Below are positions 19,943 to 43,698 of a DNA stretch of 64,000 nt, in pieces. A model generated the notes under the pieces. It ran no database searches. It was not told the origin of the DNA and saw nothing but the letters and a program-made list of their open reading frames with translations. The stretch comes from Micromonospora rhizosphaerae. Its GTDB lineage: Bacteria > Actinomycetota > Actinomycetes > Mycobacteriales > Micromonosporaceae. The translations under genes and the position numbers were made by a program. The DNA lies in the NCBI RefSeq assembly GCF_900091465.1, contig NZ_FMHV01000002.1, forward strand, positions 2,418,001 to 2,482,000, in the 5' to 3' direction. How positions within the stretch are numbered: the stretch's first letter is position 1; each line of letters opens with the position of its first letter.

Positions 19943-21622
19943 TCAGGGGAGGGCGGCCACCGCCTCGGCGTACGCGACGCCGGTGGTGACGGTCGAGGTG
20001 AGCAGCACGACCAGCTGCGCGGGCGCCACCCCGTGCTCCAGGTCGGTGGTGACGTCGCCGGCCAGCACCAGCGCCCCGTCGCCCGGGTCGTGCACGTACG
20101 CCTTGGGCAGCAGCCGGTCGTGGTTCCAGGCGTTGCAGAAGGCGTACGCCTCGGCGAGCCGGTCGACCGGCAGCCGCCGGGTGGCGACCACCCGGGCGTG
20201 CAGGATCTCCCCGCGCTGGCCGAGCCGGCGGAACTGGATCATCGCCTCGCCCCACCGGCCCACCACCGTGCCGTCGGGCTCGACCGCGTACCCGTCGCCG
20301 CGCCGGTCGAGGGCGGCGGTGATCATCGGCAGGCTCAGCGGGGCCGGTTCCTCCTCGGCCGGCTCGGGGTCCTCCGCCGAGCCGTCCGGCCAGCCGTCGT
20401 CCGGCGCGTCGGCGGGCAGCGGCACCGGGGCGCCCAACGGTCGTTCCGCCAGCCAGGAGGCGATCCGGCCGGACTGGTGGCCGGTGCCGTTGCGGGCGTC
20501 GAAACTGCCGGCCAGCTCGGTGGCGAGCGCGAACAGGTCCGCGCCGAGGGTCGCCACGTCCACCTCGGACGCCGGGCGCGGACCGTGCCCGGGGCGGTGG
20601 ATTCGCCGCCCGCCCCGCCCGGCCTCGACCGCCAGCCCGCAGAGCAGCGCGCCGGCCGCGGCGAACTCCATCGCGGACAGGTCGTCGTACGGGTGGTCCA
20701 GCCGCGGCAGCTGCTCGGCGAGGATGTCCAGCCCCCGGTCCAGGTGCCCGCCCAGGGCGCAGAACCGCAGGTGCGCGGCGAGCTGCGGGAAGGCGGCCCG
20801 TTCCCGACGGTGCCGCCGGTACGCCCGTACGTGGGCTTGCCCGGCGCGCTCCGCCTCGCCCGTGCGCAGCCACGGCAGCATTGCCACCGCGAGGGCCCGC
20901 TCGGGCTGGTCGGTGCAGCCGACCTCCCCGTCGAGCACCGGTCGCAGCTCCGCCAGGGCCGCACCGTGCTCGCCCCACCCGGCCAGCAGCTCCGCCCGCC
21001 GGGCCGGAGCGCAGCCCGGGCAGCCGCCGACCGGATCCGGTGCGGCCGACTGTTCCCGGTTGCGGCGCGGCGTCAGACGCGCCGAGCCGGACTGGTCGTA
21101 CGACTGTTCCGGGTCGCGGCGCGGCGTCAGACGCGCCGAGCCGGAATGGTCGTAGCGCGAGCGGTCGTACTCCCGGCGGGCGGTCGGCTCGTCGCCGAGA
21201 TGGTCGGCGAGCCGGCAGCGCAGCTCGGCGACCACCTCGGCGTCCGGGCCCAGCCGCCCGGCGAGGTCGTCCAGGAGGGACCGGGCCTGGTCCAGACCGA
21301 TCCGTGGGGTGCCGAAGAACGCCTCCACCGCCTGCCGCTGATGGCGGCGCAGCGTCTGGGCGTCGGCGGGGTCCAGCAGGCCGGGCGTCCGGTCGACCGC
21401 CGCTAGGCAGCGCCGGACCGGTTCGAGCAGCCGCCACCGCTCCCCGTGGTGCAGGTACGCCTCGATCAGCGCGAACCGGGCGGCCAGGGCGGTACGTGGG
21501 TCACCCACCGCGTAGGCCTGGACGGCGATCCGTTCCAACTCGGCGAAGCGGGCCTCGCCGTCGGGCATGTCACGGGCGTCGGCGAGGGCGTCGGCCAGCC
21601 CCCGGTCACTTGAGGTGGTCAT
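19943..21622 (-). CDS. Large YbjN-domain protein with in-frame tandem palindromic repeat
   Basis: The 559-residue protein has a helical, TPR-like N-terminal region (about 1-150), then two tandem 18-residue repeats beginning YDHSGSARLTPRR and YDQSGSARLTPRR (about 157-192). A second helical region follows, and a C-terminal YbjN domain (about 425-559) contains the family-like block FCNAWNHDRLLPKAYVHDPGDG. Its YbjN domain is paralogous to the upstream gene. ATG at 21622 overlaps the upstream stop codon (ATGA), so translation is coupled. YbjN proteins resemble type III secretion chaperones but their role in actinomycetes is unknown. The repeats are encoded by a 53-base palindrome also found at 43646. 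Confidence 0.85.
   Translation of the reverse strand: MTTSSDRGLADALADARDMPDGEARFAELERIAVQAYAVGDPRTALAARFALIEAYLHHGERWRLLEPVRRCLAAVDRTPGLLDPADAQTLRRHQRQAVEAFFGTPRIGLDQARSLLDDLAGRLGPDAEVVAELRCRLADHLGDEPTARREYDRSRYDHSGSARLTPRRDPEQSYDQSGSARLTPRRNREQSAAPDPVGGCPGCAPARRAELLAGWGEHGAALAELRPVLDGEVGCTDQPERALAVAMLPWLRTGEAERAGQAHVRAYRRHRRERAAFPQLAAHLRFCALGGHLDRGLDILAEQLPRLDHPYDDLSAMEFAAAGALLCGLAVEAGRGGRRIHRPGHGPRPASEVDVATLGADLFALATELAGSFDARNGTGHQSGRIASWLAERPLGAPVPLPADAPDDGWPDGSAEDPEPAEEEPAPLSLPMITAALDRRGDGYAVEPDGTVVGRWGEAMIQFRRLGQRGEILHARVVATRRLPVDRLAEAYAFCNAWNHDRLLPKAYVHDPGDGALVLAGDVTTDLEHGVAPAQLVVLLTSTVTTGVAYAEAVAALP
21048..21100 (-). repeat. 53-base palindromic repeat, copy 1
   Basis: On the minus strand this copy starts TACGACCAGTCCGGCTCGG and ends CGGGAACAGTC. 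It is an imperfect palindrome: TACGAC/GTCGTA outer arms (completed by the flank), TCCGG/CCGG and an inner CGGCGCG/CGCGCCG helix. It lies in tandem with copy 2 at a 54-base period, so the reading frame is preserved. Confidence 0.85.
21102..21154 (-). repeat. 53-base palindromic repeat, copy 2
   Basis: On the minus strand this copy starts TACGACCATTCCGGCTCGG and ends GACCCGGAGCAGTC. It is nearly identical to copy 1 and to the distant copy 3 at 43646-43698, including the central GTCTGACGCCGCGCCG. Confidence 0.85.
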
Positions 21623-22098
21623 CGGGCCGGCCCGCCCGCCAGTCGGCCCACCTCGGCGGCGAGCTGGCACCCGGTCGAGATGCCACAGTCGAGCAGCTGG
21701 TCGAGCTGGTGCGGGGTGACCCCGCGTTCCAGGTCGGTGATCACCTCGCCGCTGACCTGGGCCCACCCGTCGTCCGAAACGTGCACGAACGCCTTGGGCC
21801 AGAGCCGGTCGTGGTTCCAGGAGTTGCAGAAGGCGTGGAGGATCGGGACCTGCTCCACGCCGAAGCGGGGCGCGGCGACGGTGCGGACCTGGAGCAGCTC
21901 GCCCGCCTCGCCCCGGCGGAAGAACCAGGTCAGGCTCTCCTCCCAGCGGCCGACCAGGTCGCCGTCGGCGTCTTCGGCGACTGCGTACCCCCGGTTGGCC
22001 AGCACCGCGGCGATCAGCTCGCCGGTCAGCGGCCGCAACGCTTGCGGGTGTCCGGCCAGGGGGCCGTCCGGACCGTCCTCGAAACCCGGCGACGCCAT
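21619..22098 (-). CDS. YbjN-domain protein
   Basis: The 159-residue protein is one YbjN (type III secretion chaperone-like) domain. GRWEESLTWFFRRGEAGELLQVR and FCNSWNHDRLWPKAFVHVSDDG align with the C-terminal domain of the downstream gene, and both end in an ITDLERGVTPHQLDQLL-type helix. I chose ATG at 22098 because GAAGGG sits six bases upstream; earlier in-frame starts lack a site. It heads a two-gene operon and is divergent from ftsK. Its function is not known. Confidence 0.85.
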   Translation of the reverse strand: MASPGFEDGPDGPLAGHPQALRPLTGELIAAVLANRGYAVAEDADGDLVGRWEESLTWFFRRGEAGELLQVRTVAAPRFGVEQVPILHAFCNSWNHDRLWPKAFVHVSDDGWAQVSGEVITDLERGVTPHQLDQLLDCGISTGCQLAAEVGRLAGGPAR

Positions 22099-22210
22099 TG
22101 GCATCCCTTCTGCGGCGAATAACACACCGACGGCGCAGGTCCCGGCTGCGACGCGCGGACACGACCCGGAAAAGCGGGGATCTGCCGGGTGACGCCGTTA
22201 CGGTGACTCT

Positions 22211-24658
22211 ATGGCGGGCCGTACCTCTCAGGCGAGCCGGCGGCGCGGCGCGTCGCCGCGCGGTACCACGAACAGCCGTGCCCGCCAGCCGGCGAAGAAG
22301 ACCACCCGGGCGAGGGCCCGGCGGCGAACGGCGGCCCGACCGGGCCCGGCCGTCTACATCGGTCGCGCGGTCGGCGCGCTGTGGATGGGGCTGGCGCACG
22401 GCGTGGGCTGGGCGGTCCGGGCCGCCGGGCGGCAGGCCGCCTCGGCCCGCGACCTCGACCCGGAGCACCGCCGCGACGGCGCCGGCCTGCTGCTGTTCGG
22501 CTTCGCCATCCTCACCGGGGTAGCCATCTGGTTCGGCGGCGCCGGCCCGGTCGGCGCGCGGTTGGCCGACACGGTCCGGCTCTTCCTCGGCGCGATCGCG
22601 ATCGTGGTGCCGGTGCTGCTGATGATCGGCGCCTGGCGGCTGATGCGGACCCCGGCCGACCCCGAGCACCGCGGCCGCGGCCTGGTCGGCTGGGGGTCGA
22701 TGCTGATCGCCACCGCCGCGCTGCTGCACATCGGACAGGACCCGGTCGACTCCATCCAGCGCGACTACGCGGGCGGCCTGATCGGCGCCGGCGTCGGCGA
22801 CCTGCTGGAGACGGCGATCACCGCCTGGGTGGCCGTGCCGCTGCTGATCCTGCTGCTGGTCTTCGGTCTGCTGGTGGTCACCGCGACCCCGATCAACAAG
22901 ATCCCCGAGCGGCTCGGGCTGCTCGCCGGCACGCTCGTCGCGCCGCCGGCCGCCGAGGGCGAGGGGGCCGGGAAGCCGGCCCGGAAGCGGCCGGCCAAGC
23001 GCCTGCCGCCACCGTTGGATCCGGGCGACCCCGATGACGGCTACGACGGCGTTGACCTTCAGGACACCGTGGCGCTGCCCCGCAAGCCGCCAACGAAGGT
23101 GCCGGCCACCCGCAAGCCGGTCGAGCCGCCGGAGCATTCGCCGGCGCCCACCCGGGCCGAGCAGCTCGCGCTCACCGGGCTGGCCGGCGACTACACGCTG
23201 CCGCCGGCCAACATGCTCAGCAGCGGTGCCGCGCCGAAGAAGCGGAGCAAGGCCAACGACGAAGTGATCGCCGCCCTCACCGGGGTGTTCGAGCAGTTCG
23301 ACGTGGACGCCGCGGTCACCGGCTTCACCCGGGGGCCGACCGTCACGCGCTACGAGGTGGAGCTGGGTCCGGGCGTCAAGGTCGAGCGGATCACCCAGCT
23401 CTCCCGCAACATCGCGTACGCGGTGAAGTCCCCGGACGTGCGGATCCTCAGCCCGATCCCGGGCAAGAGCGCGGTCGGCGTGGAGATCCCGAACACCGAC
23501 CCGGAGAACGTGGCGCTCGGCGACGTGCTCCGCTCGCGGGCGGCCACCAGCGACCACCACCCGATGGTGGTGGCGCTCGGCAAGGACATCGAGGGCGGCT
23601 ACGTGGTGGCCAACCTCGCGAAGATGCCTCACATCCTCATCGCGGGGGCTACGGGCGCCGGCAAGTCGAGTTGCCTGAATTCTCTGCTCATGTCCATTCT
23701 GGCCCGGGCCACGCCGGACGAGGTGCGGCTGCTGCTGATCGACCCGAAGCGGGTCGAGATGACCGGCTACGAGGGCATCCCGCACCTGGTCACCCCGATC
23801 GTGACCAACGCGAAGAAGGCGGCCGACTCGCTGGAGTGGGTCGTCCGCGAGATGGACATGCGCTACGACGACCTCGCCGCCAACGGGGTCCGGCACATCG
23901 ACGACTTCAACCGCAAGGTCCGCACCGGCGAGATCAAGGCCCCGCCCGGCAGCGAGCGGGAGCTGCGGCCCTACCCGTACCTGCTGGTGATCGTGGATGA
24001 GTTGGCCGACCTGATGATGGTCGCCCCCCGCGACGTGGAGGACTCCATCGTCCGGATCACCCAGCTCGCCCGGGCCGCCGGCATCCACCTGGTGCTCGCC
24101 ACCCAGCGCCCCTCGGTCGACGTGGTCACCGGCCTGATCAAGGCGAACGTCCCGTCCCGGCTGGCCTTCGCCACCTCCTCGCTGGCCGACTCGCGGGTCA
24201 TCCTCGACCAGCCGGGCGCGGAGAAGCTGCTCGGCCGCGGTGACGGCCTCTTCCTGCCGATGGGCGCGTCGAAGCCGGTCCGGATCCAGGGCGCCTGGGT
24301 CACGGAGCGTGAGATCGCCGACGTGGTGAAGTTCTGCAAGGGCCAGCGCGAGCCGGAGTTCCGCCCGGATGTGCTCGCCCCGGCCTCCGACGGCAAGAAG
24401 AAGATCGACGAGGACATCGGCGAGGACCTGGACCTGCTGCTCCAGGCGGTCGAACTGGTGGTGACCTCCCAGTTCGGGTCGACCTCGATGCTGCAGCGGA
24501 AGCTGCGGGTCGGCTTCGCCAAGGCGGGCCGGCTGATGGACCTGATGGAGACCCGGGGCGTGGTCGGGCCCTCCGAGGGTTCCAAGGCCCGGGACGTGCT
24601 GGTCAAGCCGGACGAGCTGGAAGACGTCCTGGTCGGCCTGCGCGGGGGCGAGGAGTAG
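22211..24658 (+). CDS. ftsK: DNA translocase FtsK/SpoIIIE
   Basis: The 815-residue protein pumps chromosomal DNA through the division or sporulation septum. A basic N-terminus (about 1-50) precedes four membrane segments (about 90-235). A proline/lysine-rich linker (about 240-340) leads to the RecA-like motor with Walker A GATGAGKSS (about 478-486) and Walker B LLVIVDELADLMM (about 590). The C-terminal winged-helix gamma domain (about 745-815) contains QFGSTSMLQRKLRVGFAKAGRLMD. ATG at 22211 follows a TACGGT hexamer by six bases. The linker is short compared with E. coli FtsK and resembles SpoIIIE. A terminator at 24674 follows. Confidence 0.96.
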   Translation: MAGRTSQASRRRGASPRGTTNSRARQPAKKTTRARARRRTAARPGPAVYIGRAVGALWMGLAHGVGWAVRAAGRQAASARDLDPEHRRDGAGLLLFGFAILTGVAIWFGGAGPVGARLADTVRLFLGAIAIVVPVLLMIGAWRLMRTPADPEHRGRGLVGWGSMLIATAALLHIGQDPVDSIQRDYAGGLIGAGVGDLLETAITAWVAVPLLILLLVFGLLVVTATPINKIPERLGLLAGTLVAPPAAEGEGAGKPARKRPAKRLPPPLDPGDPDDGYDGVDLQDTVALPRKPPTKVPATRKPVEPPEHSPAPTRAEQLALTGLAGDYTLPPANMLSSGAAPKKRSKANDEVIAALTGVFEQFDVDAAVTGFTRGPTVTRYEVELGPGVKVERITQLSRNIAYAVKSPDVRILSPIPGKSAVGVEIPNTDPENVALGDVLRSRAATSDHHPMVVALGKDIEGGYVVANLAKMPHILIAGATGAGKSSCLNSLLMSILARATPDEVRLLLIDPKRVEMTGYEGIPHLVTPIVTNAKKAADSLEWVVREMDMRYDDLAANGVRHIDDFNRKVRTGEIKAPPGSERELRPYPYLLVIVDELADLMMVAPRDVEDSIVRITQLARAAGIHLVLATQRPSVDVVTGLIKANVPSRLAFATSSLADSRVILDQPGAEKLLGRGDGLFLPMGASKPVRIQGAWVTEREIADVVKFCKGQREPEFRPDVLAPASDGKKKIDEDIGEDLDLLLQAVELVVTSQFGSTSMLQRKLRVGFAKAGRLMDLMETRGVVGPSEGSKARDVLVKPDELEDVLVGLRGGEE

Positions 24659-24673
24659 GTCGACCGCGACGAC

Positions 24674-24704
24674 AAAGGGCCCGCCGAGGTCCGGCGAGCC
24701 CTTT
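24674..24704. terminator. Bidirectional terminator between ftsK and a small membrane-protein gene
   Basis: AAAGGGCCCGCCG pairs with CGGCGAGCCCTTT around the loop AGGTC with one mismatch. The A and T runs at the two feet suit both convergent genes. Confidence 0.8.
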
Positions 24705-24719
24705 CCGTGACGGGTCCGG

Positions 24720-24959
24720 TCAGGAGTTCAGCAGCGCGGCGGCGATCACCATGCCGATGACGGCGCCGACGACGCTGGCGGCCGCGGCGTACCAGCCGAG
24801 CGGCTTGTCGCCGAGCACCGCGCCCACGATGCCGAGGATCAGCCCGACCAGGCCGAGGAACGGAAAGAAGAGGGCGATGACGGCGAAGACGAAACCGATG
24901 ATCGTGCAGATACGGGCGGCGTTGCCGCGCGGTCGGGTGGTGGCGGGCATGTCGGCCAT
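24720..24959 (-). CDS. Small two-to-three-TM membrane protein
   Basis: The 79-residue protein has a 15-residue basic start followed by hydrophobic segments at about 17-46 (GFVFAVIALFFPFLGLVGLILGIV, possibly two passes) and 54-77. The Gly/Pro pattern resembles DUF4190-type small membrane proteins. I chose ATG at 24959 because GGAGGACACC precedes it directly; an upstream ATG at 25010 in frame has no such site. The function is unknown. It converges on ftsK. Confidence 0.8.
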   Translation of the reverse strand: MADMPATTRPRGNAARICTIIGFVFAVIALFFPFLGLVGLILGIVGAVLGDKPLGWYAAAASVVGAVIGMVIAAALLNS

Positions 24960-25077
24960 GGTGTCCTCCGTGAAGTAGGCCCTTGGGTGGGTCGGCCGGT
25001 GTCTACCCATTTCGCGCTCGCGCTACGCATCGGGTCCGATACCGGGCAGCGGGGGGAACTCCCGGGGACCGGACGGC

Positions 25078-25392
25078 TCAGTGGAAGAGCTTCAGGCCGA
25101 CGACGCCGGCCACCACCAGCAGCAGGCAGACGATCCGGGGGAGGCTGGCGGGCTCGCCCAGCGCCACCATGCCGACGAGTGCCGTCCCCACCGCCCCGAT
25201 CCCGACCCAGACCGCGTAGCCGGTGCCGACCGGGATCTCGCGTAGCGCGTACGCCAGGCCGGCCATGCTCAGCACGAGGGAGACCGCGAAGACGGCGGAG
25301 GGGAGGGGGCGGCTGAAGCCGGCGCTGCGGTCGAGGGCGATCGCCCACGCCGTCTCGAGCAGTCCGGAGAGCACCAGCACGATCCAGGCCAT
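25078..25392 (-). CDS. gdx: SMR-family guanidinium exporter (Gdx, formerly SugE)
   Basis: The 104-residue four-TM protein is a small-multidrug-resistance exporter. The Gdx/SugE subfamily pattern is clear: MAWIVLVLSGLLETAWA with the essential E13, then LPVGTAYAVW-like IPVGTGYAVWVGIGAVG and the terminal VAGVVGLKL. Gdx proteins exchange guanidinium for protons. I chose ATG at 25392 with GAGGTGACT upstream. A guanidine-III riboswitch in its leader independently supports the substrate. It is a single-gene unit. Confidence 0.93.
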   Translation of the reverse strand: MAWIVLVLSGLLETAWAIALDRSAGFSRPLPSAVFAVSLVLSMAGLAYALREIPVGTGYAVWVGIGAVGTALVGMVALGEPASLPRIVCLLLVVAGVVGLKLFH

Positions 25393-25405
25393 CGGAGTCA
25401 CCTCT

Positions 25406-25493
25406 GCGATGCGGCCCGGCCACCGGGGCCGGGACGAGTCTGTGGTTACGCGGGGCGTCTTGGCCTGACCGGGTACGCCCACGACTCGTCCGG
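25406..25493 (-). promoter_or_regulatory. Guanidine-III (ykkC-III) riboswitch with expression platform
   Basis: The aptamer core is 25453-25493 on the minus strand. It begins CCGGACGAG, contains ACCCGGTCAGG and CAAGACG, and closes a GGGCGT/ACGCCC helix, the same order, spacing and 41-base length as the known Thermobifida guanidine-III aptamer. Downstream, GACTCGTCC (25432-25440) is perfectly complementary to aptamer bases GGACGAGTC (25483-25491). A strong CCCGGCC/GGCCGGG hairpin (25415-25433) follows just before the ribosome-binding site. The two pairings are mutually exclusive and form a plausible switch. Confidence 0.9.
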
Positions 25494-25594
25494 GATGACC
25501 GAGGTCCCGAGGGAACGTCGGCCACCGGGGCCGACGCTAGCACGTCGGGGGCGGGCCGCCGGGGCGGTGAGAAAGCCCACCCTCGGTGGATCTC

Positions 25595-25610
25595 AAGTTA
25601 ACTTCAAGTT
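25595..25610 (+). promoter_or_regulatory. AT-rich palindrome upstream of the ornithine-cyclodeaminase-like gene
   Basis: AAGTTAACTT (25595-25604) is a perfect palindrome within an unusually AT-rich stretch, and AAGTT is repeated at 25606. CTCAAGTTAACTT resembles MerR-family operators such as the SoxR box. No MerR gene is in the window. Confidence 0.35.
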
Positions 25611-25623
25611 GCACCATGGGCTC

Positions 25624-26547
25624 ATGACCCTGCTCCTCTCCGACGACGACGTCGCGGCCACGCTGGACGCCTCCGCCACGGTCGACGCGATGCGGGACGC
25701 CCTGCTGGCCGCGTACCAGGGTCGGCTGATCGCCCCGCCCCGGGCATCCGCCCCGCTCGGCGGCGGTCGGATGGTGCTCACCGCCGGCCACCTGACCGGC
25801 GAGTGGTACGGCTTCCGGTCGTACGACACCTTCGGGCACCCGGAGAGCGGGCAGCTGGTCGTGCTGCACGACGGGCGTACCGGGGCGGTGCGGGCGATCG
25901 CGGTCGGCGAGGAGCTGGGCTCCCGGCGCACCGGGGGACTGGGCGGGGTCGCGGTCGACGCGCTGGCCCGCCCCGACGCCGTCACGCTGGGCCTGGTCGG
26001 TTCCGGCCGGCAGGCCTGGACCCAGGTCTGGGCCGCCGCCGCGGTCCGTCCGCTGCGCGAGGTGACCGTGCACAGCCGCTCGGCGGCCAACCGGGAGGCG
26101 TTCGCCGCCCGGGTCCGCGCCGAGCTGGGCATCCCGGCGCGGGCGGTGCCCAGCGCCGCGGCGGCGGTGACCGGACGGGACATCGTGGTGCTCGCCACCA
26201 CCAGCCGGACCCCGGTGCTGGACGCCCGGGACCTCGCCCCCGGGACGCACGTCAACACCGTGGGCTTCAAGCAACGCAACCGCGCCGAGTTCGGCCCCGA
26301 CCTGCTGGACGCCGCGGATGTCCTGGTCACCGACTCGCCGGCCCAGGCGGCCGCGTACGACCCACCGATGCTCGCCGCCGCGCCCCCGTACGCCGACCGG
26401 CTGCGCGACCTGGGTGCGGTGCTGGCGGGCGCGGTCCCGGGGCGGACCGGCGCGGACCAGATCTCGGTCTTCTGCTCGACCGGTCTGGCCGGCACGGAGG
26501 TCTTCCTGCTCGACCGCCTGGCCCGGGTCGGCGCCGCCGCGCGTTGA
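25624..26547 (+). CDS. Ornithine cyclodeaminase / mu-crystallin family protein
   Basis: The 307-residue NAD(P)-binding protein has the family order: an N-terminal dimerisation part with LLSDDDVAATLD and GRLIAPPRAS, a nucleotide-binding part with LGLVGSGRQAW (about residues 120-130), then TTSRTPVLDARDLAPGTHVNTVGF. Family members include ornithine cyclodeaminase, alanine dehydrogenases and imine reductases, and the sequence does not decide between them. I chose ATG at 25624; the longer frame from 25495 would run across the riboswitch region of the divergent gene. It may be controlled by the palindrome at 25595. Confidence 0.85.
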   Translation: MTLLLSDDDVAATLDASATVDAMRDALLAAYQGRLIAPPRASAPLGGGRMVLTAGHLTGEWYGFRSYDTFGHPESGQLVVLHDGRTGAVRAIAVGEELGSRRTGGLGGVAVDALARPDAVTLGLVGSGRQAWTQVWAAAAVRPLREVTVHSRSAANREAFAARVRAELGIPARAVPSAAAAVTGRDIVVLATTSRTPVLDARDLAPGTHVNTVGFKQRNRAEFGPDLLDAADVLVTDSPAQAAAYDPPMLAAAPPYADRLRDLGAVLAGAVPGRTGADQISVFCSTGLAGTEVFLLDRLARVGAAAR

Positions 26548-26691
26548 CCCGCCCCGGCTCGACGACCAGCGCAAGAAGCCGGGGCCCCGGCGGGGCCCCG
26601 GCGGGGGAAACGAGGCGGCCCGGGTGTGCGGCGGCCGATGCCCGCGGCCAGCCGTCGCGGCGTTGCCCGGCCGGCCCGGTACCCTCGGATG

Positions 26692-28185
26692 GTGTCTGCC
26701 ACCTCCCCTTACGCTGCCGACGGCCGCCGAGTCGCCCTGCTGACCCTGGGCTGCGCCCGTAACGAGGTCGACTCGGAGGAGCTGGCCGCCCGGCTGCACG
26801 CCGACGGCTGGCAGGTGACCACCGACGGCGAGGGCGCCGACGTGGTGGTGGTCAACACCTGCGGCTTCGTGGAGAAGGCCAAGCAGGACTCCATCCAGAC
26901 GCTGCTCGCCGCCGCCGACACCGGCGCCAAGGTGGTCGCCGCCGGCTGCATGGCCGAGCGGTACGGCCGGGAGCTGGCCGAGAGCCTGCCCGAGGCGCAG
27001 GCGGTGCTGAGCTTCGACGACTACCCGGACATCTCGGCCCGGCTGAACGCCGTGGTCGCCGGTGAGGCGATCGACGCGCACACCCCGCGCGACCGCCGCG
27101 AGCTGCTGCCGCTCACCCCGGTGGCCCGCCGGAACAGCGCGGTGTCGCTGCCCGGGCACGGCAGCCCGGCCCGGGTCCCGGAGACCGACGAGCACACCCC
27201 GGCCCACCTGCGTCAGGTGCTGCGGCGCCGGCTCGACACCGGCCCGGTCGCCTCGCTCAAGCTGGCCAGCGGCTGCGACCGGCGCTGCGCGTTCTGCGCC
27301 ATCCCCGCCTTCCGCGGCGCCTTCGTCTCCCGTACCCCGGACGAGCTGCTCGCCGAGGCGGAGTGGCTGGCCAAGACGGGCGTCCGCGAGCTGGTGCTGG
27401 TCAGCGAGAACTCGACGTCGTACGGCAAGGACCTCGGCGACCCCCGGGCGCTGGAGAAGCTGCTGCCGCAGCTCGCCGCCGTCTCCGGCATCGTCCGGGT
27501 CCGGGTGAGCTACCTGCAGCCCGCCGAGACCCGGCCCGGCCTGGTCGAGGCGATCGCCACCACGCCCGGCGTGGCGCCCTACTTCGACCTGTCGTTCCAG
27601 CACTCCAGCGAGCCGGTGCTGCGCCGGATGCGCCGCTTCGGCTCCACCGACCGTTTCCTCGAGCTGCTGGCCGGTGCCCGGGCGCTGGCCCCGGAGGCGG
27701 GTGCGCGGAGCAACTTCATCGTCGGCTTCCCCGGCGAGACCCGGGCCGACGTGGCCGAGCTGGTCCGCTTCCTGACCGAGGCGCGGCTCGACGCGATCGG
27801 CATGTTCGACTACAGCGACGAGGACGGCACCGAGGCCGCGGGTCTGCCCGGCAAGGTCTCCGCGGCCACCATCAAGCGCCGGTACGACAAGCTCAGCGCG
27901 CTCGCCGACGAGCTCTGCTCGCAGCGGGCCGAGGAGCGGCTCGGCTCCACCGTCGAGGTGCTGGTCGACTCGGTCGACGACGGCGTGGTCGAGGGCCGAG
28001 CCGCCCACCAGGCCCCCGAGGTCGACGGCTCGACCACGCTCGTCGCGCCGGAGGGCGGCGGCGTCGACCTGGCCGCGCTGCGCCCCGGCGACCTGGTCCG
28101 GGCCACGGTCACCGCGACCGAGGGTGTCGACCTGGTCGCCGTACCGGATGAGATGATCTCGGCGGCGCCCGGCGCGGCACGGTGA
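26692..28185 (+). CDS. rimO: Ribosomal protein S12 methylthiotransferase RimO
   Basis: The 497-residue radical-SAM enzyme methylthiolates an Asp of ribosomal protein S12. The N-terminal UPF0004 domain carries the cluster cysteines in [20 protein letters not shown] and [10 protein letters not shown]. The radical-SAM motif CDRRCAFC is at C195, C199 and C202, and a C-terminal TRAM domain follows (about 425-490). The TACCCT hexamer at 26680-26685 would start transcription at the GTG (26692), so I prefer that to the ATG three bases earlier. A stretch of about 35 residues between the first two domains is Pro/His-rich and variable. pgsA follows. Confidence 0.93.
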
Positions 28186-28256
28186 CGCCGGGTCGTGACG
28201 GAGCGAGGGAGCCAGGTGGTGCGGTGCCAGGTACGCCACGGCGAACGGAGCGGGCG

Positions 28257-28844
28257 ATGACCGGGGCCGAGTCCACGGCGCCCGTGGTCGCCCGGGTGCC
28301 GGTGCTCAATGCCGCCAACGCGCTGACCGCGCTGCGGCTGGTGCTGGTGCCGGTCTTCGCGGTGACCGTGGTCGTCTCGGGGATGACCCACGCCGGCTGG
28401 CGGATCGCCGCCTGTCTGATCTTCGTCGTCGCCTCGGTGACGGACCTGGTGGACGGCTGGATCGCCCGCCGGTTCAAGTTGGTCACCTCGGTCGGCAAGG
28501 TGGCCGACCCGATCGCCGACAAGGCGCTGACCGGCGCCGCCCTGGTGCTGCTCTCCTGGTACGACCGGCTGCCCTGGTGGGTGACCGCGGTGATCCTGGC
28601 CCGCGAGCTGGGCATCACGGCGCTGCGCTTCTGGGTGATCCGGCTCGGCGTGATCGCGGCCAACCGGGGCGGCAAGATCAAGACGGTGCTCCAGATCCTG
28701 GCGATCACCTGGTACCTCTGGCCGATGCCCGCCGCCCTGACCCCGGTCGGCCCGTGGATCATGGGCGCCGCGGTCCTGGTCACGGTGGTGACCGGCTTCG
28801 ACTACATCGCCCAGGCCCTCCGCCTCCGCCGCCCCCACCCCTGA
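28257..28844 (+). CDS. pgsA: CDP-diacylglycerol-glycerol-3-phosphate 3-phosphatidyltransferase (PgsA-like)
   Basis: The 195-residue membrane protein has the CDP-alcohol phosphotransferase signature DGWIARRFKLVTSVGKVADP, continuing to a final Asp (pattern DGx2ARx8Gx3Dx3D) at about residues 66-88, and five to six hydrophobic segments. It probably makes phosphatidylglycerophosphate. Its position between ftsK/rimO and cinA-clgR matches mycobacterial pgsA3, so paralogues with other alcohols are possible. I chose ATG at 28257 with CGGAG upstream; an earlier frame start at 28182 overlaps rimO. Confidence 0.88.
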   Translation: MTGAESTAPVVARVPVLNAANALTALRLVLVPVFAVTVVVSGMTHAGWRIAACLIFVVASVTDLVDGWIARRFKLVTSVGKVADPIADKALTGAALVLLSWYDRLPWWVTAVILARELGITALRFWVIRLGVIAANRGGKIKTVLQILAITWYLWPMPAALTPVGPWIMGAAVLVTVVTGFDYIAQALRLRRPHP

Positions 28845-32382: not shown

Positions 32383-35300
32383 TCAGGAGGGGGTGGTGAC
32401 CGGGATGGGGCCGGTGAAGGTCGAGCTGCCGACCACGTTGTATGAGCGGATCCGGTAGTGATACGTGACGCCACGGGCGAGCCCGGTGTTGGTGAAGCCC
32501 CGCCCGGTGACCCGGAAGGTGGCCAGCTCCTGGCTGAACGCCGGGTCGGTGGCGCGCTGGACGACGAACCCGGAGCCCGGCCCGGTGGGGGTGCTGGCCG
32601 ACCAGCTCAGGATCACCGTCGCGGTGTCCGGTGCCGGCGCGGTGGCGGTGGCGCTCACCGCGGTCGGCACCCCGGGCCGGGGCGGGGTCGTCACGGTGGC
32701 CACGGTGGACCAGGGTGAGGCGGCGCCGAGGTAGGTGGTCCGCACCCGGTAGTAGTACGTGGTGTCCGGGGCGACGGCTGGGTCGACGTGGTTGTCGCCA
32801 ACCGCGATGGCCGTGGTGCCCGGCCCGCTGGTGAAGGTCGGATTGGTGGCCCGCTGCACGTCGATCCCGGTGGCGTACGAGCGGTTGAGCCAGCGCAGCG
32901 CGACGCGCAGCGGCGCGGCCGGCGGCACCGCCGCGGTCAGCTTGGCCGGCCCGATGAGCTGCACCGACGCGGGGACGCTGTTCGACCAGGCCGAGCAGCT
33001 CACCGCGTTCTCCGCCCGGATCCGGTAGTGGTAGGTCACCCCCGGGGTCACCGAGGCGTCGGTGTACCGGGTCGCGGTGGCCGCCACGGTGATCTCCGTC
33101 CGCCCCTCGGTGAAGGTGGCGTTGGTGGCCCGCTGCAGCAGGTGGCTGGTGGCCGGTGGACGCCGGCCGTTGCCGGTCCAGGCCAGCGCGATCGCCGGCA
33201 GCGCGGTGGCCGAGCCGGGGGCCGGGGTGGCGGTCAGCCCGGTCGGCGCCCTGGGGGAGACCCGCAGCACCAGCGGTCGGCTCATCCCCTGGTCAAGGTG
33301 GCCGGCGGACCGGCTGTGCCACCGGTACTCCCAGCCGAGGTTGACCAGCTGGTTCACCACGATGGCCGGCCGCCCGTCGATCGGGCTGACCGGGGTGGCG
33401 TCCAGCCGTACGCCGGCCGGCCGGGTCGGGTCGAGCAGTCGTACGCTGTCGCCGATCTTGAACGGCAGGGCGGGCGGGACGGGGCGCAGCGCCACGATCA
33501 CGTCCTCCCGGGGGTTGACCCGGACGGTCTCCTTCCAGCCCAGCTCGTTCGGGTCCGGCGGGCGGACCGTGCCGTCCCAGCCGACCCGGTTGACCAGCTG
33601 CACGTCACCACCGCCGACGTGCAGGGCCTGGGTCTGGGATGAATCGCCGACGATCCGCCAGAGCTGGGTGCCGTCGGCCGGCGCGCCCAGCGGCACCGTC
33701 GGATCGGTCACGAAGAGCACCTCGGTCGCCGGGTCGACCGGCCCGAGCGGCAGGGTCGCCGGGTCGAGCGGGCCGGCGTGCGGGTGCCCGACGCCGAGCC
33801 GCCCGACCGCGCGGCCGTGCCGCGACTCGAAGACCTGCCCGACCGCCTTCACCGCCAGCGGCAGGGTGACCGGGGCGGCGGCGCCGGTCGGCGTGAAGCT
33901 GACCGAGGTGGCGTGCACCGGCACCAGCGTCTCCAGCGGGGTCCGGGTGCCGAACGCACGGTCGTACGCCGGTTGCGGGACGATCGGCGGCCGCTGGCTG
34001 GCCGCGTACGCCCCGGGGAGGCGTTCGGCGAGCCGGGCCAGGTCGTACCGGTCGGCCGGGGTGCCGGCCACCCGGAACTGGAGCAGGGTACGGGTGTTCG
34101 GGCCGTACCCGGGACGGGTGGCGGGGAGCCCGCCGACCCCGGTGCGGTCCGGGGCGCCGGTGTGGTGGTCGTACCGGGGGTCGAAGCGGGGCAGTGGGGC
34201 CGGGCAGTCGTTGTAGAGGATCAGCGTGGCGCCCGGGGGCAGGGCGGAGAAGTCCACCACCACGTCGGCCCGCTCACCGGGGGCGAGCAGCAGGGTGTGC
34301 CCGTCCACGTTGAGCGCGGTCGGGTCCCGCCGGTCGTACCGGTAGCCGATCGGTCGGTTCGGCAGCACCACCGGGGCGGGCAGCAGGCCGCACTCGTTGC
34401 CGATCTGGATCATCTCCGGCCCGGCCGCCCGGGGGTCCGGCGCGCCGCCGTCGCGCCCGTCGGTGGGCCAGTACGGCGGCCGGTCCGCCGCCCGGACCGC
34501 CTCGACCATCGGGACCTCCCCGGCGTCCGGGTCGGCCGGTCCGCCATCGGTCGGCCACATCGGACCGTCCGAGCGGGCCCGGTAGAGCTGGAGGTTCAGG
34601 GCGCGGTCCGCGCACGCGTTGAGGATCCGGAACCGGTACGCCTTCGGCTCCACCGTCAGGTACGGGTAGGCGACGCCGTTGACCAACGGCGTGTCGCCGT
34701 ACGCCTCGGGCACGGCCGACGGGTGCGGCACGCCCGGCGCCAGCGGCGGCTCGTCCGGCGCGGCCACCGGGTCGTGGTGCGGGTTGGGCACCGGCGCCAC
34801 CCAGGGGCTGTCGGGGCCGTCGGGGTCGTGCGACCAGGGGCCGTAGTCCCAGCGGCCGGTCGGGTTCGTCCCGGCCGCCCGGTACGGGTTCTGCCGCGGC
34901 TGGTAGACGTGCGGGTGCCAGAGGTTGCCCTTGGCGCCCCAGCGGTCCCGGTCCCAGGTCGGGTCCTGCGCGGCGAGCTGGGCGTCGTCCGGCACGAAGG
35001 TCCGGTCCTGGATCACCAGCGGCAGCTGCTCGTCCGGGAGCACGCCGTCGGCGACGAGCCGCTCCTCCGCCGGGTCGGTGAGCAGGTAGAGCGCCGACTG
35101 CCCGGAGTAGACGGTGAGCCGGGACAGCGCGAGGGTGTTGTCGTGCAGCCACATCAGCCGGCCGCTCTGCTCGTTCGGGAAGTAGAGCGTGGTGGCGCCC
35201 GCCCCCGGAGGTGGCATGTCCGGCACCGGGGTCAGCCCCACCCCGATCGGGTACGGGGTGATCTCGCCCGCCGGGGTGACCCACTGCCACGGGTTGCCGG

Positions 35301-35991
35301 CGCTGATCCAGGCGGTCTGCGCCCCGTCCAGGTGGGGCACCGCCCGATTCTGCGGGTACGGCGCCGGCCCGTCCAGCGGCCCGACCCCCGCGCCGTCGAC
35401 GGTCTCGTCGACCGGCAGAAAGAGTTCGCCGGCCCGGCCGGTCGGAAGCTGGTTGATGAACTTGATCCGCACCGGCCGTCCCCGCCGAGCCATGATCAGG
35501 GGCCCGAGGTGCCAGGGTCGGTCCGGCGGGCTCACCGTGTTGTGCCCGGACGGGTCGGTGCCGAGGTTGAGCTGGCGGTAGCCGCGCAGCCGGGTGGCCG
35601 GCAGGTCCCGGTGCAGCCGCTGGGCGTACTCCTGCAACCCGATCTCGTAGTAGTCGCAGCCCGGCCAGGTGATGGTGTCCGGCACCGCCACCGGCAGGTG
35701 GGCGCCCAACCCGTTGCGACCGAGCGGCCCGGGCAGCGGCAGCGCGTCGACGAACTTGCGGATGCCGGTGCCGGGGACCACCCGCCCGGCGTGGTCGAGC
35801 GCCGGCAGCGGGCTGCCGGCGAAGTTCGGCACCGGCCCGAAGCAGCGGGGCACGGCGGCGGGGTCCAGGCTGGCCGGCGCCGGGTCGCTCTCCTCGCTGG
35901 TCCGGGCGGCGGGCACGGTCGGCGTGTGGTCCTCACCGGTGCGGACTGCGCGGTCCGCCCGGCTCGGCCGAAGTCTGCGGAACAGGGCCAT
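32383..35991 (-). CDS. Multicopper-oxidase-fold protein with degenerate copper sites and three FN3 repeats
   Basis: The 1202-residue protein follows a bacterial multicopper-oxidase layout from about residue 60 to 915, with GPLIMARRGRPVRIKFINQLP, YFPNEQSGRLMWLHDN, LVIQDRTF and MSRPLVLRV. The usual copper motifs are broken: HxH is H220-L-D222, the second HxH is H283-D-N285, HxxHxH keeps only H791, and HCHxxxH is H892-S-R-S-A-G-H898, so the T1 cysteine is absent. Three fibronectin type III domains follow (about 918-1202; each has a TYHYRIR or TYYYRVR strand). No signal peptide is visible. I chose ATG at 35991 with GGGGGAG upstream. It is probably not an oxidase. Confidence 0.82.
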   Translation of the reverse strand: MALFRRLRPSRADRAVRTGEDHTPTVPAARTSEESDPAPASLDPAAVPRCFGPVPNFAGSPLPALDHAGRVVPGTGIRKFVDALPLPGPLGRNGLGAHLPVAVPDTITWPGCDYYEIGLQEYAQRLHRDLPATRLRGYRQLNLGTDPSGHNTVSPPDRPWHLGPLIMARRGRPVRIKFINQLPTGRAGELFLPVDETVDGAGVGPLDGPAPYPQNRAVPHLDGAQTAWISAGNPWQWVTPAGEITPYPIGVGLTPVPDMPPPGAGATTLYFPNEQSGRLMWLHDNTLALSRLTVYSGQSALYLLTDPAEERLVADGVLPDEQLPLVIQDRTFVPDDAQLAAQDPTWDRDRWGAKGNLWHPHVYQPRQNPYRAAGTNPTGRWDYGPWSHDPDGPDSPWVAPVPNPHHDPVAAPDEPPLAPGVPHPSAVPEAYGDTPLVNGVAYPYLTVEPKAYRFRILNACADRALNLQLYRARSDGPMWPTDGGPADPDAGEVPMVEAVRAADRPPYWPTDGRDGGAPDPRAAGPEMIQIGNECGLLPAPVVLPNRPIGYRYDRRDPTALNVDGHTLLLAPGERADVVVDFSALPPGATLILYNDCPAPLPRFDPRYDHHTGAPDRTGVGGLPATRPGYGPNTRTLLQFRVAGTPADRYDLARLAERLPGAYAASQRPPIVPQPAYDRAFGTRTPLETLVPVHATSVSFTPTGAAAPVTLPLAVKAVGQVFESRHGRAVGRLGVGHPHAGPLDPATLPLGPVDPATEVLFVTDPTVPLGAPADGTQLWRIVGDSSQTQALHVGGGDVQLVNRVGWDGTVRPPDPNELGWKETVRVNPREDVIVALRPVPPALPFKIGDSVRLLDPTRPAGVRLDATPVSPIDGRPAIVVNQLVNLGWEYRWHSRSAGHLDQGMSRPLVLRVSPRAPTGLTATPAPGSATALPAIALAWTGNGRRPPATSHLLQRATNATFTEGRTEITVAATATRYTDASVTPGVTYHYRIRAENAVSCSAWSNSVPASVQLIGPAKLTAAVPPAAPLRVALRWLNRSYATGIDVQRATNPTFTSGPGTTAIAVGDNHVDPAVAPDTTYYYRVRTTYLGAASPWSTVATVTTPPRPGVPTAVSATATAPAPDTATVILSWSASTPTGPGSGFVVQRATDPAFSQELATFRVTGRGFTNTGLARGVTYHYRIRSYNVVGSSTFTGPIPVTTPS

Positions 35992-36153
35992 GGCTCCCCC
36001 GGGGATCGGGGCGCGACGGCCGTCACCCGGCGTGGCGGGCGGTCGCGCTGCTGACGATCGGTGAGCACTCAACCGCAGCATGCGACGCCAACGACCGGCA
36101 GGGAACTACCCATTCGTCCGTGTCTCGGGTGATCTTGCCCGATCGTGGAAGTT

Positions 36154-36981
36154 CTACGTGGTCGGGCCGGCGGGCCGGGACCGTTCCGGCTGGCAGACCG
36201 GGCACCAGTAGGTGACCCGCTCGCCCAACTCCTCCTTGCGGATCGCCGTGCCGCAGCGGCGGCACGGCTGCGCCCGGCGGCCGTACACGTAGCTGGTCTG
36301 CCCCCGGTGCAGCGAGCCCGTGGTGCTCTGCGTCCACCGGCCCCGGTTGGCGGACAGCAGCCGTTGCGCCAGGGTGACCGTGCCGGCCAGGTCGGGCACC
36401 GCGCCGACCGGCGTCCAGGGCGAAATGCCGCGCAGGAAGAGCACCTCGCACTTGTAGAGGTTGCCGACCCCGGCCAGATTGCGCTGGTCCAGCAGGGCCT
36501 CGCCGATGGTGGCGTCGGGGTGCACGGCGAGCCGGCGGACCGCCTCGGCCGGGTCCCAGTCCGGGCCGAGCAGGTCCGGCCCGAGGTGGCCGACCAGCGA
36601 CTCCTCCTCGGCCGTCGGGACGAGGGCCAGGTCGTGCAGGTGGTAGCCGACCGCCACCGCGCTGGCCGAGCGGAGCACCACCCGGATCAGGTGCGCCGGC
36701 CGGGCCGCCCACCGCTCACCGGGCGCGTACGCCCGCCAGGCACCGTCCATCCGCAGGTGGGAGTGGAGCGTCCAGTCTCGGGCGCCCTCACCGCGCTCCG
36801 GCGGGCTGGTCAACCGCAGCAGCAGGTGCTTGCCGCGGCTGGCCGACTCGCGGACGGTCCAGCCGGTCAGGTCGGTCCCGGCGAGCTGCGGCACCCGGAA
36901 GTCGGAGCCGGTGAGCCGGGCGCCGGCCAGCGCGCGCTGCAGGACGCGGGCCGTGTTCCAGACGGTGTCGCCTTCGGGCAC
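36154..36981 (-). CDS. nei: Fpg/Nei-family DNA glycosylase (Nei2-like endonuclease VIII)
   Basis: The 275-residue enzyme begins MPEGDTVWNTA, the Nei signature; Pro2 becomes the catalytic N-terminal amine and Glu3 the acid. The H2TH region (DQRNLAGVGNLYKCEVLFL, about 160-180) and the C-terminal zinc finger (CRRCGTAIRKEELGERVTYW followed by CPVC, about 240-263) are complete. It removes oxidised pyrimidines and nicks the abasic site. GTG at 36981 is fixed by the need for Pro at position 2. The 162 bases to the next gene hold no feature I can name. Confidence 0.93.
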   Translation of the reverse strand: MPEGDTVWNTARVLQRALAGARLTGSDFRVPQLAGTDLTGWTVRESASRGKHLLLRLTSPPERGEGARDWTLHSHLRMDGAWRAYAPGERWAARPAHLIRVVLRSASAVAVGYHLHDLALVPTAEEESLVGHLGPDLLGPDWDPAEAVRRLAVHPDATIGEALLDQRNLAGVGNLYKCEVLFLRGISPWTPVGAVPDLAGTVTLAQRLLSANRGRWTQSTTGSLHRGQTSYVYGRRAQPCRRCGTAIRKEELGERVTYWCPVCQPERSRPAGPTT

Positions 36982-37048
36982 CCGTCCATCCTGCCTCGCC
37001 GAGCGGGATTCGCATATGTCGCCATTTACGGCGAGGCGCGCGCCCGCC

Positions 37049-37831
37049 TCACGCGCCGGTCACCGGCACGACGTCCCCGGGGCGTACGCCGAGCAGGTCG
37101 ACCGCCCGGCCGGTGTTGACCGCCACCGCGACCAGGCCGGCCGAGTCGGCGTACACCACCGGCTCCCCGACGGCGGCGTCGCCGAACGTACGCCCGCGCG
37201 CCGCCTCCCGCCCGGCCACCCGGACCCGCACCGGGAGCCCGTCGAGGAGGTCTGCCGGGGCGGCGAGCTGGACGTTGCCGAAGTGGTCCACGGTCAACAC
37301 CTCGGCGGCGAACCCGTCGTCGGTGCGGCGGACCACCGGCGCCGGCAGCCGGACCAGCGTCGCCGGGTCCACCGCCGGACCGGCCTCGGCCAGCGGCGCG
37401 CCGAGCGCGAGCCGGGCGGCGACCGGGGCGAAGACGTCCCGGCCGTGGAAGGTGCGGGAGACCGCCGGCGCCAGCCACCCCGGGTTGGTCAGCTCGACCG
37501 CCGCGGTGACCCCACCGAGCGCCGCGGCGGCGTCGAGCAGCAGCCCGTTGTCCGGCCCGACCAGCAGCCCGCCCGGCGTGGCCAGCCCGATCCCCCGACG
37601 GCTGGTGCCGACGCCCGGGTCCACCACCGCCACGTGCACCCCGGCCGGCAGGTACGGCACGGTCTGGGCGAGCACCGCCGCACCCCGCCGCACGTCCGCC
37701 GGAGGCACCAGGTGGGTCACGTCGATCACCCGCGCCGCTGGTGCGAGCCGGGCGATCACGCCGTGGCACGCCGCCACGAACCCGTCGGCGAGCCCGTAGT
37801 CGGTGGTCAGCGAGATCCACGGGCCGGTCAC
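37049..37831 (-). CDS. SAM hydrolase / SAM hydroxide adenosyltransferase (DUF62 family)
   Basis: The 260-residue protein has ISLTTDYGLADGFVAACHGVI at the N-terminus, VAVVDPGVGTSRRGI (about 70-84), GPDNGLL and RTFHGRDVFAPVAARLA, the signature of the fluorinase-related DUF62 family. The bacterial members hydrolyse S-adenosylmethionine to adenosine and methionine. The 23-residue loop that marks true fluorinases is not seen. GTG at 37831 overlaps the GNAT stop codon (GTGA), so translation is coupled. The longer frame back to 38260 is out of frame with the GNAT gene and not real. Confidence 0.88.
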   Translation of the reverse strand: MTGPWISLTTDYGLADGFVAACHGVIARLAPAARVIDVTHLVPPADVRRGAAVLAQTVPYLPAGVHVAVVDPGVGTSRRGIGLATPGGLLVGPDNGLLLDAAAALGGVTAAVELTNPGWLAPAVSRTFHGRDVFAPVAARLALGAPLAEAGPAVDPATLVRLPAPVVRRTDDGFAAEVLTVDHFGNVQLAAPADLLDGLPVRVRVAGREAARGRTFGDAAVGEPVVYADSAGLVAVAVNTGRAVDLLGVRPGDVVPVTGA

Positions 37832-38331
37832 GGTCGTCGCCCCGCCGCCAGCCGGCGTTCCAGGACCAGCTCGTCGTGCAGCGGGATGTCGTCCTCCCCG
37901 AGGTACGGGATGGATGGCTTCACCTGCCGGGCCCGGTCGACCGCGCCCGCGTCGACCGCCACGATCCGCAGCCCGCGGCGCTGGTAGAAGCGGAGCGCCC
38001 CGAGGTTGTCGTTGGTGGTGACCAGCCAGAGCCGGTCCGCGCCGGCGGCGAGGGCGACCGCCTCGGCAGCGGCGAGCAGGGCACTGCCGGCACCCCGGGC
38101 CGCGGCGGTGGCGGCCAGGCTGACAACCTCCAGCCCGCCGTCGGCGAGCCGGTAGGCCAGCGCGCCGGCGAACCCGCCCGCGTCGTCCACCGCCACCAGC
38201 GTCGGCAGCGTACGCAGGTCGTAGCGGGTGTCGTGGACCACCACGTACGGGCCGCCCCACTCCCGCTGGTGCAGGGCCGCGACGTCATCGTGGTCGCGGG
38301 GCTCCGCGGGTCGTACGTCGATCGTGCCCAT
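37828..38331 (-). CDS. GNAT-family N-acetyltransferase
   Basis: The 167-residue protein has GNAT motifs IDVRPAEPRDHDDVAALHQREW, the acetyl-CoA loop ATAAARGAGSALLAAAE (about 77-92) and TTNDNLGALRFYQRRGLRIVAV. The C-terminus KPSIPYLGEDDIPLHDELVLER is shared with a subset of small-molecule acetyltransferases. I chose ATG at 38331; a frame start 12 codons earlier falls in the gap to Lhr. It is coupled to the SAM hydrolase gene downstream by a four-base overlap, so the two products may act in one process. Confidence 0.87.
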   Translation of the reverse strand: MGTIDVRPAEPRDHDDVAALHQREWGGPYVVVHDTRYDLRTLPTLVAVDDAGGFAGALAYRLADGGLEVVSLAATAAARGAGSALLAAAEAVALAAGADRLWLVTTNDNLGALRFYQRRGLRIVAVDAGAVDRARQVKPSIPYLGEDDIPLHDELVLERRLAAGRRP

Positions 38332-38394
38332 CACACCGTCTCCTTGGTCCCGCCGGGCCGGCGACACCCTATCCGGTGCCGCGGGCGCGTCGGG

Positions 38395-43119
<4,725 letters not shown>

Positions 43120-43207
43120 ACTGCCCCGTCGGTGTGACATTCAGCCGCCGCCGGACGCTGGTTCTGTCCGACTCTGGCTCTTACGCGACGGATGCGATTT
43201 TGAATGC

Positions 43208-43252
43208 GTTAAGTCTTACTTAACTGCTTGCTTGCGTCGAGCAACATAAAGT
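43208..43252 (+). promoter_or_regulatory. AT-rich regulatory region with two palindromes
   Basis: GTTAAGT-CTT-ACTTAAC (43208-43224) is a perfect inverted repeat. TTGCT-N7-AGCAA (43228-43244) follows immediately and overlaps a plausible TTGCTT -35, and TAAAGT at about 43247-43252 could be the -10. The low GC content stands out against the surroundings. It lies between lhr and the small gene at 43290 and could control either. Confidence 0.5.
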
Positions 43253-43289
43253 AACTTCACTCGCAACGCAGCGTTGGGGGAGGGCCTGG

Positions 43290-43673
43290 ATGATCGTCGA
43301 GGAGCGAGGCTCCGGGCCCGGGAGTGACGTGCTCATCCGCAAGGTCGACGGTCACCTCGCCGCGCTCCGCGCCGGCCTGCACGGCCCCGAGCTGGAGCTT
43401 GCCGAGCAGCTCGCCGGCTGCCTGCGGGAGCTGGTCATCGCCACCGCCCACTCCAGCGCCGCCGACCGGGGGCTGGTCCGGGCCGCGGTGCACTACTTCG
43501 TTCTCCGGCGGGAGAGCCGGGGCAAGCTGCTTCCGGTGCGGTCCCTCGCCGCCGCGCAGCGGGTGGTCAACAAGGCCGTGCTCCAGCTCGGCCGCCCCGA
43601 CCTGCTGGTGGAGACCCGTCGGGAGCGGCCGTCGCGCCAGCCGGCTACGACCATTCCGGCGCGACCCGTCTGA
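43290..43673 (+). CDS. Small protein of unknown function, 3' end inside a repeat element
   Basis: The 127-residue protein is mostly helical and I do not recognise it. The core (VDGHLAALRAGLHGPELELA to LAAAQRVVNKAVLQLGRPDLL, about residues 18-105) looks like a compact helical domain. The last 20 residues (PSRQPATTIPARPV) and the stop codon are encoded by a copy of the 53-base palindromic repeat, so the native C-terminus has probably been replaced. GGGGGAGGG precedes ATG 43290. No long partner frame follows. The AT-rich palindromic region upstream suggests tight regulation. Confidence 0.75.
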   Translation: MIVEERGSGPGSDVLIRKVDGHLAALRAGLHGPELELAEQLAGCLRELVIATAHSSAADRGLVRAAVHYFVLRRESRGKLLPVRSLAAAQRVVNKAVLQLGRPDLLVETRRERPSRQPATTIPARPV

Positions 43674-43698
43674 CGCCGCGCCGCGACCCGGAGCAGTC
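43646..43698 (+). repeat. 53-base palindromic repeat, copy 3
   Basis: It starts TACGACCATTCCGGCGCG and ends GACCCGGAGCAGTC, differing from copy 2 at only three or so positions. The TGA within GTCTGACGCC is the stop codon of the 43290 gene. Orientation is opposite to copies 1 and 2. The remaining 43699-43842 contains nothing I can name. Confidence 0.85.

Follow-up and report, generated by a model that had tools for sequence, protein, structure and literature searches.

The 64,000-nucleotide stretch of Micromonospora rhizosphaerae analysed here (contig NZ_FMHV01000002.1, positions 2,418,001 to 2,482,000; hereafter the window) contains three copies of a short palindromic element. Two of these lie in tandem within a gene for a YbjN-domain protein, and the third lies at the end of another open reading frame (ORF). 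The copies and the genes that hold them are as follows.

21101..21154, minus strand: copy A of the 54-bp palindromic element, encoding YDHSGSARLTPRRDPEQS (host residues 157-174); R1 score 83.7 bits
21047..21100, minus strand: copy B, a direct tandem of copy A with a period of 54 bp, encoding YDQSGSARLTPRRNREQS (host residues 175-192); 73.6 bits
43646..43699, plus strand: copy C, with a frame containing TGA that ends the upstream ORF and with a damaged inner stem; 70.6 bits
19943..21622, minus strand: host gene of copies A and B, 559 aa, with a helical N-terminal part and a YbjN domain (PF10722) at residues 433-555
43290..43673, plus strand: 127-aa ORF ended by copy C, which provides its last nine residues, ATTIPARPV, and the TGA

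The element and its host genes

A 54-base pattern with four positions left free matches copies A, B and C with 0, 3 and 0 mismatches, respectively, and finds nothing else in the window. It has no match in 100 dinucleotide-preserving shuffles of the window, so that all three copies named by the original prediction are present. Their length needs correction: the unit measures 54 bp (18 codons) and not 53, as conservation across 190 copies runs from T1 (71%) to G54 and tandem units are spaced by 54 bp. Position 2 varies freely in these copies, and conservation in the flanks is close to background. The element takes the form T-N-CGAC...GTCG and makes up a single hairpin with 17 stem pairs, an 8-base loop and paired ends (C3-G54, G4-C53, A5-T52, C6-G51). 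The fold-back that had been noticed is thus real, but the arms TACGAC/GTCGTA given for it arise in part from the junction of the tandem copies. A single unit has a stem made up of CGAC/GTCG, CTCCAG/CTGGAG (or TTCCGG/CCGGAA) and CGGCGCG/CGCGCCG. Fold z values are -1.85 and -2.63 for the two tandem copies on the coding strand, and -0.05 (plus strand) and -1.58 (minus strand) for copy C.

The tandem pair is read in frame in the YbjN protein, as had been claimed. It sits, however, outside the YbjN domain: residues 157-192 belong to the N-terminal part of a protein whose domain begins only at residue 433. A model of this protein (60 sequences) has a mean pLDDT of 86.1, with residues 164-191 below 50 between helices at 145-163 and 202-215, and the 36 residues of the two units are probably a low-confidence flexible loop within a helical scaffold. 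Among the best 120 of 449 homologues, the query included (116 were parsed and 4 were not parsable), the linker at the place of the insert is 18-19 aa long in 89/116 and 33-103 aa long in 24/116. The long linkers in this group are found nearly all in the closest relatives; many contain decaying units, and some are unrelated filler.

The third copy does supply the end and the stop codon of an ORF, although the first of the nine terminal residues comes from copy C in its last base alone. This 127-aa ORF has no NCBIfam or Pfam match. Beside the YbjN gene, the minus-strand neighbour at 21619-22125 looks YbjN-like by eye.

Distribution in the genome, genus and family

Copies elsewhere were detected with a covariance model of the element. 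In the following, G000 denotes the window genome, other G numbers the compared genomes, and L numbers the loci around copies. The window genome has 19 full copies, plus half or compound copies, and five relatives have 22 to 48 at E<=1e-7 (G048 47, G057 48, G022 28, G009 22, G033 28). The element is therefore a dispersed repeat, as originally suspected, with far more copies than the three in the window.

In a set of 121 genomes, with at most 47 candidates scored per genome, 68/73 genomes of the same genus match at E<=1e-3 and 59/73 at E<=1e-6, and outside the genus 2/48 match weakly (3e-5 and 5e-5). A family sample of 150 genomes (at most 38 candidates each) gives matches at E<=1e-6 in 27 genomes and in 8 of 44 genera; G148, a member of this sample from another genus, has at least 38 candidates. 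An exact 22-base core of the element occurs in 112 stretches of a species-genome collection, and the 80 stretches given by name come from Micromonospora (46), Rugosimonospora africana (31), Planosporangium (2) and Dactylosporangium (1), all of them Micromonosporaceae. No match to the element was found in plasmids and phages by blastn or in viral contigs by exact 21-mers, and an Rfam scan of four loci to an E value of 1 returned two weak matches, both off the element.

For the mapping of copies to genes, 375 profile hits were reduced to 257 copies that scored at least 30, had distinct flanks and were bordered on either side by 120 bp of sequence; the sample is not random, because a locus was chosen for its score, for an exact match to the core or for matching flanks. 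The 257 copies represent 133 independent sites, of which 70 lie in predicted coding sequences (CDS), 57 between genes and 6 at gene ends, so that insertion into genes is indeed tolerated, as had been proposed. The window genome is the less selected part of the set, and its 19 copies are divided into 12 in CDS, 6 intergenic and 1 at a gene end.

The hairpin is conserved, not the peptide

The element has two subfamilies, in which the outer stem reads CTCCAG/CTGGAG or TTCCGG/CCGGAA, a difference made up of compensatory changes. Among the 19 copies of the window genome, 6/17 pairs show changes on both sides, giving 12 double-changed cells, and the covariation score is reached by 0/500 shuffles. 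The 173 distinct units from all loci contain 123 double-changed cells over 9/17 pairs, against a mean of 26 and a maximum of 44 in shuffles, although these shuffles keep no account of relatedness among units and the size of the excess is thus indicative. Pair 9-48, for instance, is CG in 127 of these units, GC in 21 and TA in 5. Because the changes are compensatory, and because copies are found in several frames and between genes, the conserved feature is the hairpin fold and not the peptide. This bears out the original view that the DNA is conserved rather than the protein. Nor does the peptide persist where DNA identity is lost, since it decays in orthologues, with pieces such as RDPEQS staying readable in some.

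These observations bear on a repeat at the protein level, in which an 18-residue motif would have been duplicated in frame and selected for its peptide. Such a repeat would fit the 18-codon tandem period seen in 19/36 neighbour pairs, and peptide pieces are kept in the YbjN linkers of some homologues. However, the copies use four reading frames over the two strands, and a fifth once, and some stand between genes, while it is the hairpin that covaries and the peptide that decays. The openness of the frames does not help this explanation either: five frames are open in 95/173 units and six in 49/173, little above the mean of 4.6 in shuffled units. Frames and covariation already refute a protein-level repeat, and we regard it as vanishingly improbable. 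An adaptive meaning of the five open frames was also considered and rejected, because shuffled units give nearly the same openness.

Empty and filled insertion sites

Empty orthologous sites are present at the YbjN locus, at sites in a trio of related species and at the sites of the window genome itself. Matching flanks of the YbjN locus are found in 81/81 genus genomes searched, and 23/29 aligned loci are without the element (L100 was not alignable on both sides). At this site the window genome and five near relatives have full, truncated or decayed copies or, in the case of G053, other filler. The trio, G022, G009 and G033, is 94-95% identical at the YbjN locus. At 9/17 sites seemingly unique to one of the three, alignments read by eye contain clean empty orthologues; L274 has no clean empty locus, relatives hold altered copies at L275 and L276, and the remainder are partial or messy. 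Read in the same way, the sites of the window genome have clean empty orthologues in 13/15 cases, the exceptions being L004 and L015. The site orthologous to that of copy C is empty in G032 and G044 and occupied in G010.

The filling of a site adds the whole unit of about 54 bp, for a net gain of mostly 54 bp, or of 51 bp where the unit replaces three bases of the target. In the sulfotransferase gene at L263, RILT-D-PPA becomes RILT-[18 residues]-PPA, and in the L-aspartate oxidase gene (nadB) of G022 at L069 there is a clean 54-bp insertion. Target loss at filled sites is mostly 0 or 3 bp, and no target-site duplication is found in the empty-site alignments. Net sizes were also counted automatically at 44 occupied loci, with the commonest value taken for each; the size is a multiple of three at 36/36 intragenic loci (54 bp at 15, 51 at 12, 48 at 3, 24 at 2, and 60, 57, 42 and 39 at one each), and the minority values are multiples of three as well. 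The seven intergenic loci have net sizes of 53, 51, 46, 36, 54, 57 and 56 bp, and the one gene-end locus has 51 bp. A strong target motif was looked for and rejected, as the base biases over the 133 sites are only weak (C at -2, 0.55; A at -1, 0.03; C at +2, 0.58; G at +4, 0.55; A at +7, 0.32).

A miniature inverted-repeat transposable element (MITE), derived from an insertion sequence with a transposase that acts at the element ends, would likewise be non-autonomous, have defined ends and vary in presence between species. It is nevertheless an unlikely origin, given the empty-site alignments without target-site duplication and a unit that is, as a whole, one hairpin with an 8-base loop, although a parent insertion sequence may exist.

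Genes that contain the element

At the 70 CDS sites, the element is read in sense frame 0 at 21 sites, sense frame 2 at 14, antisense frame 1 at 21, antisense frame 2 at 13 and antisense frame 0 at 1. The stop-containing sense frame is used at none of the 70. Antisense frame 0 is open in the consensus, and its peptide is basic. The rarity of this frame suggests selection on the peptide, perhaps owing to its basic character.

Fourteen interrupted genes were scanned for protein families, and in 7 of them family matches either flank the insert on both sides or span it. The results for the individual genes are:

glnD (L002): family match on both sides of or across the insert
Anthranilate-synthase-like fusion (L004): family match on both sides or across
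RlaP (L006): family match on both sides or across
UvrD helicase with HRDC (L010): family match on both sides or across
DUF58 (L012): family match on both sides or across
Histidine kinase (L016): match spans the insert but falls below its cut-off
nadB (L069, G022): family match on both sides or across
YbjN protein: one-sided family match; homologues cover both sides
Biotin carboxylase (L014): one-sided match; insert near the C-terminus
Sulfotransferase (L263): one-sided match
HTH protein (L008): one-sided match
Helicase (L019): one-sided match; insert at codons 6-23
SpoIIE protein (L079): one-sided match
Methyltransferase (L269): one-sided match; insert at its end

Intergenic space is nonetheless favoured, as 57/133 sites lie there and non-coding DNA makes up only about 12% of these loci. 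This enrichment and the conserved hairpin could be taken for signs of an element useful to the host, such as a binding site, an mRNA hairpin or a boundary signal, that was spread and kept by selection. Intergenic copies also lie somewhat nearer to gene 3' ends (31/84 distances below 30 bp) than to 5' ends (21/126), and because of this a minor role in termination may exist. Against a useful element stands its patchy occurrence, in 27/150 genomes and 8/44 genera of the family at E<=1e-6. Moreover, 13/26 loci of G022 could not be paired with any of the copies retrieved from its two sisters, and no Rfam family falls on the element in the four loci scanned. The orientation of the neighbouring genes (unidirectional 58, divergent 34, convergent 13; 105 placed of 108) tracks the shares of intergenic DNA of each kind. 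On balance, a host-useful element is quite improbable. A terminator at gene ends was rejected as a candidate in its own right, since the orientation of neighbours follows intergenic DNA.

Clusters, nested copies and comparison with known repeats

Copies within 400 bp of one another form 36 distinct neighbour pairs, and all 36 are direct (head-to-tail). Nineteen are spaced by exactly 54 bp, one of which, with 41% identity, is not a true unit pair. Truncated copies that retain the 3' end are found at L091, L423, L002 and L012. Extra 12-18 bp copies of the element 3' end were also seen, either beside full copies (to the right of the element at L002 and L012) or alone. Remnants truncated at the 5' end seem commoner than those truncated at the 3' end, which is an impression and not a count.

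Several copies contain, at a constant point in the element loop, a second palindrome, 57-59 bp long, which gives rise to a 111-bp form (examples are L445, L446, L448, L449, L451, L454 and L460). In G022 this palindrome lies at L370:615-673, and in the window genome at L017/L447, L018/L451, L020/L454 and L460. It is present three times in tandem at L017/L447 and stands alone at L450, L453 and L457.

The original prediction placed the element among repetitive extragenic palindromes (REP) and bacterial interspersed mosaic elements (BIME), which would be moved by a REP-associated tyrosine transposase (RAYT). Like GTAG REPs, the element is short, palindromic, dispersed and sometimes clustered, and a Y1 transposase match (PF01797) occurs in 20/81 genus genomes, including the copy-rich G048, G057 and G009. 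The assignment does not survive closer comparison, however. There is no PF01797 match in the copy-rich G000, G022 and G053, with a control search matching in 5/14 genomes, and every neighbour pair is direct. There is no GTAG/CTAC tag, because position 2 is free: the sites begin with TCC in 33, TGC in 25 and TAC in 22 of 133 cases, and GTAG or CTAC occurs in 4/173 distinct units. An unpaired CGTC tag is absent as well. Finally, with 70/133 sites inside predicted CDS, more than half, the element is not mostly extragenic. Movement by a RAYT is thus highly improbable.

A closer parallel is offered by the Rickettsia palindromic elements (RPE), which the sections on them in PMC10969869 and PMC3733652 describe as selfish palindromes lying in frame in unrelated genes that stay open. 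Those of Wolbachia are similar, according to the corresponding part of PMC4224334. The palindrome of the Micromonosporaceae is also found in frame in unrelated genes that stay open. Compared by description, RPE are about 150 bp long and come from Rickettsia (PMC10969869, in the part concerned), whereas the present element is 54 or 111 bp long, GC-rich and actinobacterial. No Rickettsiales host appears here, the 80 named of the 112 stretches with the 22-base core all being from Micromonosporaceae. The element works like RPE, as an in-frame selfish palindrome.

In the sections of Di Nocera et al. (2013; PMC3733652) devoted to them, CGTC REPs are palindromic, have no dedicated transposase, lie inside genes in some species and include RPE-4 and RPE-6. 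The same sections describe a CGTC tag that is unpaired, stems of 8-9 bp, loops of 4-5 bases, a CCA tail and mostly inverted (HH) dimers, head-to-tail dimers being rare among REPs (PMC3733652). The words actinobacteria, Micromonospora and Salinispora are absent from the main text of that paper. In contrast to CGTC REPs, the present element has 17 pairs, an 8-base loop, paired ends and direct neighbours only. The letters CGTC do stand at positions 50-53 in 94/173 distinct units, but only one of these four bases is unpaired. Judged by its tag, its stem and the orientation of its neighbours, the element is neither a GTAG REP nor a CGTC REP. Mycobacterial interspersed repetitive units (MIRU), which are about 50-100 bp long, resemble it in their actinobacterial host, similar size and head-to-tail tandems, but differ in lying mostly between genes.

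Origin and significance of the element

The best explanation, to which we assign a probability of about 0.82, is that of a non-autonomous mobile palindrome of the Micromonosporaceae, which would spread as a hairpin-forming DNA or RNA unit, be moved in trans and then be filtered by selection. A trans-acting activity other than a RAYT would recognise the hairpin and join it at a weakly preferred site. Insertion adds the whole unit, with no target duplication and with the loss of mostly 0 or 3 bp of target. Purifying selection would then remove insertions that are out of frame, so that in-frame 18-codon cassettes remain.

Several points weigh against a mobile palindrome. No mobilising enzyme was found in a transposase search that covered the Y1 family (PF01797) only, and we infer movement from comparison across species and have not seen it. 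CDS were predicted with a home-made gene caller based on codon scores, which gives a coding density of 0.876 in these loci. Of the 14 genes scanned, 7 match their family on one side only, and the L019 insert, at codons 6-23, would fall upstream of the gene if the start call were wrong. The 44 loci of the net-size count include mutual orthologues and are therefore not 44 events, and several of the intragenic net sizes (48, 42, 39 and 24) come from comparison with partial copies or decayed sites. Moreover, the same nadB nucleotide is filled in G022 (L069) and in M. yasonensis (L173), with flanks that are 92-94% identical, yet G009 and G033 (L330, L332) are empty there despite being 96-97% identical to G022. 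To explain a shared site with empty closer relatives, one needs repeated insertion into a favoured site, loss of the element, or recombination across species. Further sites are shared or half-deleted between species.

A more specific form of the mobile palindrome can be put forward tentatively, although it is rather doubtful. Here the mobile hairpin would lack both a dedicated transposase and one of the RAYT kind and would be spread by a host activity that captures it at DNA ends, and its 54- and 111-bp forms would both amount to whole codons. The small target loss without duplication might, at a guess, fit such capture. If a host-captured hairpin is indeed at work, it would correspond, among actinobacteria, to the protein-coding palindromes and would repeatedly furnish proteins of the Micromonosporaceae with new loops.

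A literature search, the coverage of which excluded most subscription papers and the original RPE papers, returned no description of this Micromonosporaceae palindrome family. In-frame selfish palindromes are best known from Rickettsia and Wolbachia, which are intracellular and hard to manipulate. This behaviour is now found in actinomycetes that have large genomes and can be cultured, and in which many sites differ between related species. With culturable hosts and variable sites, both movement without a known transposase and the creation of loops in working enzymes become testable.

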